Positions 30,086-34,025 of a stretch of 34,185 nucleotides of DNA are shown here, piece by piece. The position numbers were made by a program, and so were the translations under genes. Under the pieces are notes generated by a model. It was not told the origin of the DNA. It made no database searches and saw nothing but the letters and a program-made list of their open reading frames with translations. Each line of letters starts with the position of its first letter. Position 1 is the stretch's first letter. Origin of the DNA: Candidatus Gastranaerophilales bacterium (GTDB taxonomy: Bacteria > Cyanobacteriota > Vampirovibrionia > Gastranaerophilales > Gastranaerophilaceae); the NCBI GenBank assembly GCA_944322885.1, contig CALUQH010000026.1:1-34185 (forward strand). Direction: 5' to 3'.

Positions 30086-30191
30086 GTTTAAATAAAAACT
30101 TTGCTGCTGAGTAGAAATATAGATAGCATAGCAGGATAGGTATTACAAAGTGATACCTCTATTTTGTGATGAAAAACAGAAAGGAAAAATT

Positions 30192-31166
30192 ATGACAAAA
30201 ACACTAGATGACTTTTACAATGACTTAGGAGCCAGAGAGTCTGGGGGAAATTACAAGGCTGTGAATACTGCGGGTTATATCGGTAAATATCAGATGGGTG
30301 AAGCTGCAATGGTAGATGCGGGTTATTATAAACCAAAACCAAATGGCAATTATAACAACAAATGGGATGGTCAATTTACTGGTAAAGATGGTATTTACAG
30401 TGTTGAAGATTTCTTAGATAACCCTCAGGCTCAGGAGAATGCTCAACGAATTTATAAACAAAAACAGTGGACATATATAAAGAATTTTGCACAAAAATAT
30501 GATGGAAAAACGATAAACGGGATTCCGATTACACAATCTGGTATGCTTGCTGCTACACATTTATTAGGTCAAACCAAACTCTTAAAATATCTTCAAAGTA
30601 ATGGCAGGTATATTCCAAAGGATGGTTATGGCACAAGTATTGAAGAGTATTTAAGAAGGTTTGCCGGTTACGATGTTTCAGAAATCACAGGATTAAAAAG
30701 TAGCAGTACTGCAACTGTTCAACCCAATTCTGCAAAATCGGCAACACCTCAACAACCATCAAAACTTATAAAAATTGGAATAGAAATGAATGTCGACAAA
30801 GACGGCAACCGTATCTTTACACCTCAGGAAATCGGCGAAATGAGCCCTGATGAATTTCAGGAAAATCTTCCGTTAATTGAACAACAGTTAAAAGACGGTC
30901 TAATTAAACCGCAAGCGCAGGATTATTCAGGTTATTTAAATCCGGTCAGTGGTAACAGCAAACTTTTTTCAAGAGAATTGATTTCACAAATGTCTGGTGA
31001 TGAATATACTGCTAATGAACCTGCTATTATGGCGCAATTACAGGCAATCGAAATTCCGACAGATAGCGAACTTGAAACAGCAAGTCTGAGAGGCGGAACA
31101 GTTTATGTAAGACCATACACAAGATCTGACGGCACAGAAGTCCGCGGATATTACAGATCGGTATAA
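30192..31166 (+). CDS. Lysozyme/transglycosylase-like protein with duplicated motif
   Basis: This 324-aa protein opens with LGARESGGNYKAVNTAGYIGKYQMG, a lytic-transglycosylase-like segment with E16 as the likely catalytic acid and GKYQMG as the family's G-x-YQ region. Two copies of a 26-residue motif follow, IFTPQEIGEMSPDEFQENLPLIEQQL (208-233, here quoted in parts: MSPDEFQENLP) and the matching MSGDEYTANEP (258-283), 50 residues apart. The C-terminus YVRPYTRSDGTEVRGYYRS resembles a tail motif seen in phage and exported proteins (from memory). ATG 30192 has AAAGGAAAAA before it. No signal peptide, so phage-type release or a virion-associated role is possible. Confidence 0.78.
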   Translation: MTKTLDDFYNDLGARESGGNYKAVNTAGYIGKYQMGEAAMVDAGYYKPKPNGNYNNKWDGQFTGKDGIYSVEDFLDNPQAQENAQRIYKQKQWTYIKNFAQKYDGKTINGIPITQSGMLAATHLLGQTKLLKYLQSNGRYIPKDGYGTSIEEYLRRFAGYDVSEITGLKSSSTATVQPNSAKSATPQQPSKLIKIGIEMNVDKDGNRIFTPQEIGEMSPDEFQENLPLIEQQLKDGLIKPQAQDYSGYLNPVSGNSKLFSRELISQMSGDEYTANEPAIMAQLQAIEIPTDSELETASLRGGTVYVRPYTRSDGTEVRGYYRSV

Positions 31167-31196: not shown

Positions 31197-31403
31197 TTAA
31201 ATTTCTTCTAATAAATTTGCAGTCCAAATAGCATAAATTAATTCGTTCATCCTTGTAACATTCAACTTTTTAAATATTGATCTTTTTAACTTCACGTATT
31301 CATTATAGTCCAGTCCAAGCCAGTCTGTTATTCCCCTGTAATTCTGACCTCTTATAAGCATATATAAAACTTCTGTCTCTTTTGGCGTCAAAGTTTCTAA
31401 CAT
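31197..31403 (-). CDS. Small LuxR-type HTH protein, 68 aa
   Basis: Almost the whole protein is a GerE/LuxR helix-turn-helix: LTPKETEVLYMLIRGQNYRGITDWLGLDYNEYVKLKRSIFKKLNV (about 5-49), with the start LTxxExEVL and the ending KKLNV as in the family. There is no receiver or ligand domain. Its ATG shares its A with the stop TAA of the upstream gene (TAATG), so it is the third of three coupled genes. Confidence 0.78.
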   Translation of the reverse strand: MLETLTPKETEVLYMLIRGQNYRGITDWLGLDYNEYVKLKRSIFKKLNVTRMNELIYAIWTANLLEEI

Positions 31404-31654
31404 TATACATACCTCCTAAACATTTCAAGGCTTACTAAATTATTCTTTATCACATAAAAAGCCAACTGTCGCCTGTTTTGAAGATGAAGTTCTTTCATAA
31501 GTTTTCGTACCCTGTAAATAAATTTGTAAGTTTGTCTTGAATAAAATCGCTTCGCAATCTCACGATATGACAGTCCTGTTAAAAGGTAATACAACTCCTT
31601 CATATCCACAACATCATATAGTCTATCTCCGATATCATAAAACATCTTGAGCAA
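31403..31654 (-). CDS. LuxR-like HTH protein, 83 aa
   Basis: Residues about 18-70 (MKELYYLLTGLSYREIAKRFYSRQ...RVRKLMKELHLQNRRQLAFYVI) fit a divergent LuxR-type HTH, with the LLTGLSYREIAKRF turn and a basic recognition helix. The first 16 residues are a short extra helix. It overlaps the 276-aa gene by 20 bp and the 68-aa gene by 1 bp, and is the middle gene of the trio. Confidence 0.72.
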   Translation of the reverse strand: MLKMFYDIGDRLYDVVDMKELYYLLTGLSYREIAKRFYSRQTYKFIYRVRKLMKELHLQNRRQLAFYVIKNNLVSLEMFRRYV

Positions 31655-32465
31655 CTCCTTTTATGGCATCAACAATTTCTTCATGTGTTGACCGACTCCA
31701 GAAAAATGGATTGAGTAGAAGAATTCTAAAAACTACCTGAATAATATTTTTGACATGAAACTTTGCAGGCAATTGTTCAATAATTTCTTCCACGTTTTCA
31801 GCGTTACTAATTGCCGGATTTAATTTATAATCTGCTATTGCATTTGAATCATACCCGTTTAATAAACCTGCTGCCATAACTTCGCAGTCATTATGCGTTA
31901 ATCCTGTGACGGGTTTGTATTTATTCTTATCTGCCCAATCTAGCAGAAGCGGAAAATTATGTATTATTTCGTGAGCTTGAAACTCCATTACGTCATCCAA
32001 ATCATCATTTAATATACAATAAAGCAGAAGCAGGTTTATTTGTTTATAATCCAGAAAACTCTTTTTTATAAGTGAGATATCAAATTGAGCTTGTTCATCT
32101 AACTCCGCCCTTGCATCAAGCATCATATGTTCAGATACAAAGTCTGAAAACTTTCTAAACACAGGATTAATTTTAAACTGCCAGCTATAAAGACACAAAA
32201 ATCTGTTGAACTGTTTACGGCTGTCGATAACTTCAAGGTAGCTCTTAATAATGTTCTTCATCTCTGCCGGTATAAGATAAAGATAATAATTTAACGTTAC
32301 TAAATTTATTATATTCTTTTGTGCCGCATATTCAATTTCTTTTTGCAGTTTCTTTTCGGTAAGATTATCTACATCCCCGTCTATACCAAGAATTGTTTTC
32401 ATGAGCTGTATTCTAAGGTATGTGTTGTATAAAGTTCTGTACGGTATAGTAAATTCTCCACGCAT
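31635..32465 (-). CDS. 276-aa regulator-like protein with C-terminal LuxR-like HTH
   Basis: The first 185 residues are helical and unrecognised (TLYNTYLRIQLMKTILG ...). From about 190, GLTHNDCEVMAAGLLNGYDSNAIADYKL and later EQLPAKFHVKN follow the same LuxR pattern as the two small genes downstream (LTxxExEVL, LLxG, xIAxx, KF/LxV). It may be the sensor or partner-binding member of the set. AAAGGATT precedes ATG. It is divergent from the Xre gene at 32641, with TATTATCGTAGT and TCGTAT operator-like sites between them. Confidence 0.62.
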   Translation of the reverse strand: MRGEFTIPYRTLYNTYLRIQLMKTILGIDGDVDNLTEKKLQKEIEYAAQKNIINLVTLNYYLYLIPAEMKNIIKSYLEVIDSRKQFNRFLCLYSWQFKINPVFRKFSDFVSEHMMLDARAELDEQAQFDISLIKKSFLDYKQINLLLLYCILNDDLDDVMEFQAHEIIHNFPLLLDWADKNKYKPVTGLTHNDCEVMAAGLLNGYDSNAIADYKLNPAISNAENVEEIIEQLPAKFHVKNIIQVVFRILLLNPFFWSRSTHEEIVDAIKGVAQDVL

Positions 32466-32519: not shown

Positions 32520-32614
32520 TATATGCAAGTTATTTTAGTTTTTGAATTGCCTATTCGGCTATATTTTACATGAAATATTGCATATAATTGTAGCAATAAG
32601 TGTTATGGAAAGAT

Positions 32615-32640: not shown

Positions 32641-32982
32641 ATGCCGTTAAAAGCTGATTTTGGAAAACGTATTAAAGAATTGAGAGAGTCATTGTTTATG
32701 TCTCAGGAAGAGTTCTCCGAAAAAATAGGTATTCACAGAAATACCCTTGCAAGAATTGAAAGCGGAGAAAACTTTGTATCACTTGAAACATTAGAAAATA
32801 TAAAAGAAGCTTTAGGTGTTGAGTATAATGAATTATTTACATTTGGAAAGCCGGTTGATAAAGCCCCCCTAAAAGCATTTACTTTGAAACTTCGGGAATT
32901 AAATGATGCAGATGCCAAGTATTTTCTGAAAAATATTAATGCCTATCTTATAGCCAAACAAGAAAACGAAAAGATTAAATAA
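32641..32982 (+). CDS. Xre-family repressor, 113 aa
   Basis: Residues 7-65 (FGKRIKELRESLFMSQEEFSEKIGIHRNTLARIESGENFVSLETLENIKEALGV) form a typical Cro/CI helix-turn-helix, with the recognition helix near HRNTLARIE. The C-terminal 45 residues are helical and may dimerise. No ribosome site is visible; TAAACT ends 6 nt before ATG, a weaker case of the leaderless geometry. A palindrome sits just upstream. It converges on the other Xre gene with a 2-bp gap. Confidence 0.85.
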   Translation: MPLKADFGKRIKELRESLFMSQEEFSEKIGIHRNTLARIESGENFVSLETLENIKEALGVEYNELFTFGKPVDKAPLKAFTLKLRELNDADAKYFLKNINAYLIAKQENEKIK

Positions 32983-32984
32983 AT

Positions 32985-33323
32985 TTAATCCGTAATCGCC
33001 TGCATCATTTTTAACAACATTTGTTTCTTATCTAAGTTCATCTTGTCTAACAGTTTACATGCAGTGAATGAAACTTCATTGTTAGAAACCGCGCCTGTAT
33101 CATCAAAATTGAAAAGGTATGCCAATGGAACATTTAACACTTCAGATAGCTTAAACAGAACTTTAGATGACGGAAAACTGTAACCGGTTTCTGTTCCTGA
33201 AATTGTTTGAGCAGAGCATCCGCATTTTTCAGAAAGCTGTTCCTGAGTTAACCCTGATAAATTCCTGTAGTACCTGACTTTTTCGCCAAATTTTTTCATA
33301 ATTTCAGAAGAATTATAAACCAT
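32985..33323 (-). CDS. Xre-family repressor, 112 aa
   Basis: FGEKVRYYRNLSGLTQEQLSEKCGCSAQTISGTETGYSFPSSKVLFKLSEVLNVPLAYLF (about 12-71) is a Cro/CI HTH with recognition helix near SAQTISGTETG. The tail (KLLDKMNLDKKQMLLKMMQ) is helical. There is no clear ribosome site; TATAAG ends 8 nt before ATG 33323, and ATG 33299 is an alternative start. It is divergent from the recombinase gene, with two palindromes in the gap. It is the best candidate to repress both promoters carrying TATTATCGTAGT. Confidence 0.85.
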   Translation of the reverse strand: MVYNSSEIMKKFGEKVRYYRNLSGLTQEQLSEKCGCSAQTISGTETGYSFPSSKVLFKLSEVLNVPLAYLFNFDDTGAVSNNEVSFTACKLLDKMNLDKKQMLLKMMQAITD

Positions 33324-33479: not shown

Positions 33480-34025
33480 ATGAAGCATTTGGTTGAGCCC
33501 ATCAGGGATAAGAAAAAGATTAGAGATGTTGAAGATTATCTTGCAAAAAGAAGCAAACGGAACAGGTTATTATTTGTGCTGGGCTGTAATTCCAGGTTAA
33601 GGGTTTCTGACATACTCGCGTTGGATGTAAAAGATGTCAGGGGTAAATCCCACATAGAACTTAACGAAAAGAAAACAGGGAAATGCAAGCGTTTCCCGAT
33701 AAATGATAAATTAAAAAAACTTATCAATGATTTTATAAAGAATAAATCAGATAATGAACCGTTATTTTTAAGTCAAAAACAGATGCGGCTAGACCGTTCG
33801 CAGGTGTACAGGATGTTGAATGAAGCGTGTAAAGCTGTCGGAATTGATGTGAATATCGGAACACACAGCATGAGAAAAAGTTGCGGTTATCATCACTATA
33901 ACCAGTTCAAAGATGTTGCGATGTTACAGATGATATTCAATCATTCATCGCCTCAGATAACTTTACGTTATATAGGAATTGAGCAGGACGAAATAGATAA
34001 CAGTTACAAACAGTTTGTTTTATAA
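33480..34025 (+). CDS. Compact tyrosine recombinase, 181 aa
   Basis: The catalytic residues of the family are present: R41 in RLRVSD, K65 in EKKTGK, H129 and R132 in HSMRK, H155 in FNHSS and the nucleophile Y164 in LRYIGI. Usual integrases are 300-400 aa; this one lacks the arm-binding and most of the core-binding domain, as do FimB-like invertases and some element-borne recombinases. It should cut and join short sites for integration, excision or inversion. GAAAGGAAAAG precedes ATG. It is divergent from the Xre gene at 33323 and lies near the right edge of the window. Confidence 0.9.
   Translation: MKHLVEPIRDKKKIRDVEDYLAKRSKRNRLLFVLGCNSRLRVSDILALDVKDVRGKSHIELNEKKTGKCKRFPINDKLKKLINDFIKNKSDNEPLFLSQKQMRLDRSQVYRMLNEACKAVGIDVNIGTHSMRKSCGYHHYNQFKDVAMLQMIFNHSSPQITLRYIGIEQDEIDNSYKQFVL

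Follow-up and report, generated by a model that had tools for sequence, protein, structure and literature searches.

Overlapping genes for GerE-like helix-turn-helix proteins in a Gastranaerophilales contig: a conserved gene pair and a candidate phage-derived regulatory cassette

The helix-turn-helix (HTH) domains of GerE, NarL, and LuxR typically homodimerise through helix 4. Phage Mu has a regulatory region with the c repressor and two activators, Mor and C. Two cases are described in which two different LuxR-type HTH proteins make up one heteromeric regulator: BldM-WhiI (PMC4125116) and RcsB-BglJ (PMC5025477). In the ipuS/ipuR-upaE and fimS phase switches, a short tyrosine recombinase accompanies an inverted-repeat promoter segment that drives a LuxR-type regulator, and inversion at ipuS has been proven (PMC6083910).

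The locus considered here belongs to a Candidatus Gastranaerophilales bacterium, whose incomplete genome is spread over multiple contigs. One entire contig (G000:C26) was analysed, and "the window" denotes this whole stretch of 34,185 nucleotides. A sequence-only reading had described three overlapping genes encoding proteins of 276, 83, and 68 amino acids (aa), coupled in translation and sitting on a mobile element, and had suggested that they could be parts of a heteromeric regulator. The three open reading frames (ORFs) are indeed present where that reading placed them, all on the minus strand, beginning with the gene for the 276-aa protein (31635..32465). The middle gene is also real, but its length required correction. 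The Shine-Dalgarno sequence AAGGAG (31655-31660) stands directly against the TTG start (31654) of the 83-aa ORF, whereas it lies 9 nt upstream of an ATG (31645) three codons into that ORF, at which the homologues of the middle protein also align. The position of the ribosome-binding site (RBS) and the homologue starts thus rule out the TTG start, together with the 20-bp overlap first read there; consequently, the middle gene (31403..31645, minus strand) encodes an 80-aa protein, and its start overlaps the stop of the 276-aa gene by 11 bp (31635..31645, minus strand; ATGTTTTATGA). The 1-bp overlap between its stop and the start of the 68-aa gene (31197..31403, minus strand) stands as originally read (31403..31403, minus strand; TAATG), and the 68-aa gene has its own AGGAGG. 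With these overlaps, the three genes are translationally coupled, as the sequence-only reading had it. The families of the three proteins are referred to below as 276h, 83h, and 68h.

Divergent from the trio is a gene for an XRE-type (Cro/CI HTH_3) regulator (32641..32982, plus strand; Pfam HTH_3, 2e-13), and between it and the 276-aa gene lies an operator-like palindrome, TTGCCTATTCGGCTA (32547..32561, plus strand). A second XRE-type gene (32985..33323, minus strand; Pfam HTH_3, 9e-15) and a gene for a 181-aa tyrosine recombinase that lacks the N-terminal arm-binding domain, INT180 (33480..34025, plus strand; Phage_integrase, 1e-24), follow before the contig end. No Mu-like structural or transposase genes were identified around the trio before the contig ends at 34185. 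On the other side, the trio adjoins a gene for a 338-aa protein whose match to transglycosylases is weak (30150-31166). Since genome G017 has a relative of it close to a 276h remnant and an integrase (L011:2759-3667), the 338-aa protein may belong to the same element as the trio.

Each of the three proteins carries a tetrahelical HTH of the LuxR/NarL/GerE type, as judged by Pfam for the 68-aa protein and by predicted structure for the 80- and 276-aa proteins. The 68-aa protein matches Pfam GerE at the gathering score (E 4e-5), and the profile of its family matches the HTHs of LiaR, VraR, and NarL (best E 5e-8). The 80- and 276-aa proteins have no significant Pfam match. The best PDB matches of the 83h family profile are LiaR, EvgA, and VraR, and those of the 276-aa family profile are LuxR/NarL-type HTHs; both are weak (E >=0.01 for 83h). 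The AlphaFold2 model of the 80-aa protein (pLDDT 76) is a tetrahelical LuxR-type HTH, which Foldseek matches to the HTHs of LiaR, VraR, DosR, NarL, TraR, and GerE (1fse) at a probability of ~1.0, with weak E-values (>=0.09) that are expected because the domain is small. The model of the 276-aa protein (pLDDT 87, pTM 0.86) comprises an all-helical N-terminal domain (residues ~1-180) and a C-terminal four-helix GerE-like HTH (~181-265). The four best VIA rows for residues 181-265 are all LuxR-type HTHs (phage VqmA, Z 7.3; LasR, 7.0; VraR, 6.5; DosR, 5.7). Neither PDB nor BFVD gave a credible Foldseek match for the N-terminal domain, and its VIA matches are at the background level of helical bundles, which does not imply a new fold. 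In a tree, each of the three HTH groups is monophyletic. Chance resemblance to an HTH is ruled out by the Pfam, profile, and fold results together with conservation. Thus, the claim of an HTH in each protein holds, although the LTxxExEVL motif on which it was based fits the 68- and 276-aa proteins and not, literally, the 80-aa protein. The claim that receiver and autoinducer domains are absent is likewise upheld: Pfam and NCBIfam find neither in any of the three proteins, and the 68- and 80-aa proteins are too short to contain one.

Relatives were sought in 33 genomes of the genus and 383 of the family, and the loci fetched were then scanned locally with profiles. The genes 83h and 68h make up a conserved operon, found at ~25 loci in ~10 genera, and this pair, rather than the trio of the sequence-only reading, is the conserved unit. 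The usual overlap between 83h and 68h among the homologues is 8 nt. Values of dN/dS for orthologue pairs lie between 0.05 and 0.18 (with dS undefined for one 68h pair), and the pair is under purifying selection; the window proteins share only 24-53% identity with family members. Apart from the weakest matches (L091-L094), 83h departs from its pairing with 68h only at a contig end (L087/L152) and at one locus with degenerate copies of both genes (L061). By the names of neighbouring genes, which were read by eye, copies of the pair lie upstream of atpD (L056-L059), within or next to the ribosomal spc operon (L055, L136), and, in four genomes of one genus, beside a secF-like gene (L129, L131-L133). 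At the atpD and spc sites, antiparallel XRE genes are interleaved with the pair in the order XRE(-) 83h(+) XRE(-) 68h(+); the 83h-XRE-68h cassette in or beside the spc operon is seen in two different genera (L055:6894-8598 and L136:5778-7187). These chromosomal copies, upstream of atpD, at the spc operon, and beside secF, may be domesticated versions of the pair.

The 276-aa family comprises 15-17 near-full-length homologues. The single 276-aa sequence gave no matches in genome contigs or viral contigs, and a viral scan with the first alignment gave none; richer alignments did give matches. A collection of 50,697 phage records contained no relatives of 83h or of the 276-aa protein. That the trio represents a known defence or phage family was ruled out, since PADLOC gave no match and the PHROG matches were only marginal. 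Most 276h genes lack the pair at their locus, and they are often oriented divergently to an XRE gene (L008-L010, L138, L139, L143). All three families occur together at only three loci, in two orders: 83h-68h-276h in genome G166 (L125/L161), and 276-83-68 in the window and in L169, an IMG/VR contig of a Mu-like phage. The phage part of L169 encodes a tail sheath, portal, gpF, methylase, and gpG (with PHROG matches for sheath, portal, gpF, and gpG). After gpG come INT180, a 71-aa GerE-like gene, 276h, another GerE gene, 83h, 68h, and two XRE genes, that is, an array of five HTH genes beside a short recombinase of the window's type. In L128 and L124, a large protein different from 276h is followed by 83h and 68h, in overlapping genes behind the same recombinase. 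The suspected association with mobile elements is therefore borne out through homologous genes in Mu-like phage loci (L169, L128, L124, L164, L168), and the survey of related elements found the gene order of the window repeated in L169. Consequently, on both points by which the sequence-only reading could have failed, the predicted HTH in the 80- and 276-aa proteins and the conservation of order, the results agree with it.

Several other features of these loci were observed. Phage proteins of 346-421 aa in the position of 276h (L124:6695-7960, L128:5097-6137, L185, L192) appear by eye to have two GerE-like segments; the two that were scanned have no significant Pfam match. A solo 276h/XRE cluster adjoins an SNF2-type helicase similar to DISARM DrmD (L009:2723-5389; PADLOC E 5e-84), a neighbourhood also seen in L008, L010, and L012, which suggests a possible further role of the 276-aa family in the regulation of a defence island. 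A Mor-like protein (by eye) is encoded near the 276h gene of L008, and L128 (6641-8771) has two adjoining hsdS-like genes with a common N-terminal stretch, as in recombining specificity genes (by eye).

INT180 matches phrog_216 (7e-63) and, weakly and below cut-off, NCBIfam tyrosine-type DNA invertases, and its homologues flank GerE-like arrays in Mu-like phages. An inverted pair of ~20-bp sites lies 3' of INT180 at fixed positions (~+50 and ~+215) in 23 of 29 phage-type loci, many of which are near-identical (for example, L169:8420-8680, L128:4852-5097, and L124:6515-6760; also L164, L168, L171, L174, L178, L185, L188, L190, and L192). The asymmetric spacer of the sites matches between the two copies of one phage even where phages differ. 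The segment between the sites contains an operator-like motif and, by eye, a promoter-like -10; the gene that follows encodes, from its sequence, a GerE-like protein in most of the cases inspected. The sites could thus bound a possible invertible promoter of the array. However, all of the ~24 loci compared have the segment in one orientation and none has it reversed, so a free-running inversion in the phages was set aside. Three Gram-positive phage records carry INT180 homologues with no inverted pair of this kind. The window contig stops 160 bp past INT180, and the trio lies on the opposite side of the recombinase gene, beyond the two XRE genes. Given this arrangement and the single orientation, inversion is proposed for the relatives and is not a finding in the window. 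Elsewhere, a truncated INT180 frame continues into an 83h gene, as if fused by a deletion (L054:6683-7216).

Two motifs accompany these genes. An XRE gene of the window's family lies beside most 276h loci, and a palindrome with the consensus TANCC-N4/5-GGNTA, to which the window copy has one mismatch, is present with <=1 mismatch at a similar place in nine of 10 XRE/276h intergenic regions (shuffles: mean 1.3, maximum 5), as counted in the same sequences in which it was first noticed. In several phage loci, the consensus also occurs ~172 bp past the recombinase gene. The other motif, a 14-bp box, GGAAATATTATTAA, precedes chromosomal 83h-68h operons by 34-74 bp at sites that are unrelated to one another. 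It is rare in the genus, with 30 exact copies among the matches listed for 33 genomes, again counted where it had first been seen; eight of these precede a short GerE-like gene by 33-58 bp (L206, L207, L211, L219, L221, L224, L233, L235), among them genes of the chromosomal 83h-68h operons and canonical solo GerE genes. This placement points to possible self- or cross-regulation. The window contains no exact copy.

From the genes, folds, order, conservation, and motifs observed, a model can be drawn up in which DNA binding, a heterodimer, a direction of regulation, and targets are inferred. In this model, which we hold to be slightly more probable than its negation, the trio is a phage-derived transcription-regulator cassette, or switch, that sets an XRE repressor against GerE-like proteins, with 83h and 68h forming a heterodimer. 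The XRE protein would bind TANCC-N4/5-GGNTA and repress the divergent promoter; release from this repression would allow all three GerE-like proteins to be made together by translational coupling, with the XRE repressor opposing them. The 83h and 68h proteins, which probably act as a heterodimer, would pair through the GerE-dimerising helix and so present two different recognition helices, while the 276-aa protein would be a regulator that uses its helical N-terminal domain for sensing or docking. The targets would be genes of the element itself and the promoter of the cassette. In favour of this cassette are the HTH folds, the conservation and dN/dS values of the pair, the gene order repeated in L169, the overlapping trios of L128 and L124, the palindrome between divergent XRE and 276h genes, and the box upstream of chromosomal pairs and canonical short GerE genes. 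In addition, 83h and 68h are kept together even with an antiparallel XRE gene between them, and in Mu-like phages from the same bacterial family a short tyrosine recombinase precedes GerE-like genes, the pair among them. Against it, 276h joins the pair in only three loci and in two orders, the window has neither phage structural genes nor the exact box, and the Foldseek E-values for the 80-aa HTH are weak. A broader version, in which a minimal recombinase inverts a promoter that drives a swappable array of HTH-only LuxR-type proteins, the members heterodimerise, XRE opposes them, and hosts have repeatedly domesticated the core pair at atpD, spc, and secF, is a tentative proposal that we think unlikely to hold in full.

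The main rival is that the three proteins are GerE-like regulators that homodimerise independently and share no more than an operon, with no heteromer, an explanation we consider doubtful. Three distinct HTH families in one operon could fit three homodimers as well as they fit the cassette; each of the three folds belongs to the LuxR type that forms homodimers, and the row of five different GerE-like genes in L169 resembles a set of paralogous regulators. However, 83h and 68h stay together at at least four unrelated genomic sites, including those with XRE between them, and where 83h decays (L061), 68h is degenerate too.

Two further explanations appear much less probable. In one, which we regard as improbable, the GerE-like proteins are not transcription factors but accessory DNA-bending or directionality factors for INT180. 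Although GerE-like genes adjoin INT180 and the paired inverted sites in phages, the chromosomal pairs persist without an adjacent INT180 at conserved sites (L056-L059, L129, L131-L133), and XRE genes and promoter-proximal boxes accompany them. In the other, which we regard as equally improbable, the window copy is a decaying prophage remnant without current function. The lack of structural phage genes in the window would fit such decay, as would the degenerate or fused copies of the pair in relatives (L054, L060, L061). Prolonged neutral drift, however, should have brought stops, and at 24-53% identity to the family the three ORFs, RBSs, and overlaps of the window are intact.

No matching description was found in the non-subscription literature searched, which included work on Gastranaerophilales/Melainabacteria phages and on phage LuxR arrays; the sequence-only reading likewise knew of no described system with such a layout. 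The domain type is well known; it is the overlapping tandem of HTH-only GerE-like genes on Mu-like phages, with a pair probably domesticated by the host, that was not found described there. Such tandems suggest sensor-less phage regulators made from minimal DNA-binding domains, with specificity achieved by pairing. Furthermore, these non-photosynthetic gut relatives of cyanobacteria have repeatedly kept the pair next to core operons, preceded by a single conserved box, which makes the targets of the pair open to direct tests.

Each known system shares part of this arrangement. The trio lacks the N-terminal domain that defines the classical LuxR quorum-sensing or FixJ/NarL response-regulator class, as judged by Pfam and NCBIfam. 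It resembles Bacillus GerE and the stand-alone LuxR/GerE-type regulators, which are HTH-only proteins of ~70 aa with the same tetrahelical fold; however, GerE is the homodimeric product of a single host gene, whereas here two or three divergent HTH genes overlap and have phage-borne relatives. Like Mu, the cassette would combine a repressor with small DNA-binding activators on a Mu-like element, but the activators of Mu have the Mor/C fold, while the candidates here are GerE-type and several stand in tandem. The phage INT180 arrays resemble ipuS and fimS in that a short tyrosine recombinase lies beside what may be a promoter segment bounded by inverted repeats; ipuS inverts, whereas the arrays are found in a single orientation and have HTH-only regulators on Mu-like phages. 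Finally, the proposed 83h-68h heteromer has its counterparts in BldM-WhiI and RcsB-BglJ, but those are response-regulator or larger proteins encoded by genes that lie apart, whereas 83h and 68h are HTH-only products of overlapping genes. Should 83h and 68h prove to be an obligate heterodimer, they would make up a very small heteromeric transcription factor.
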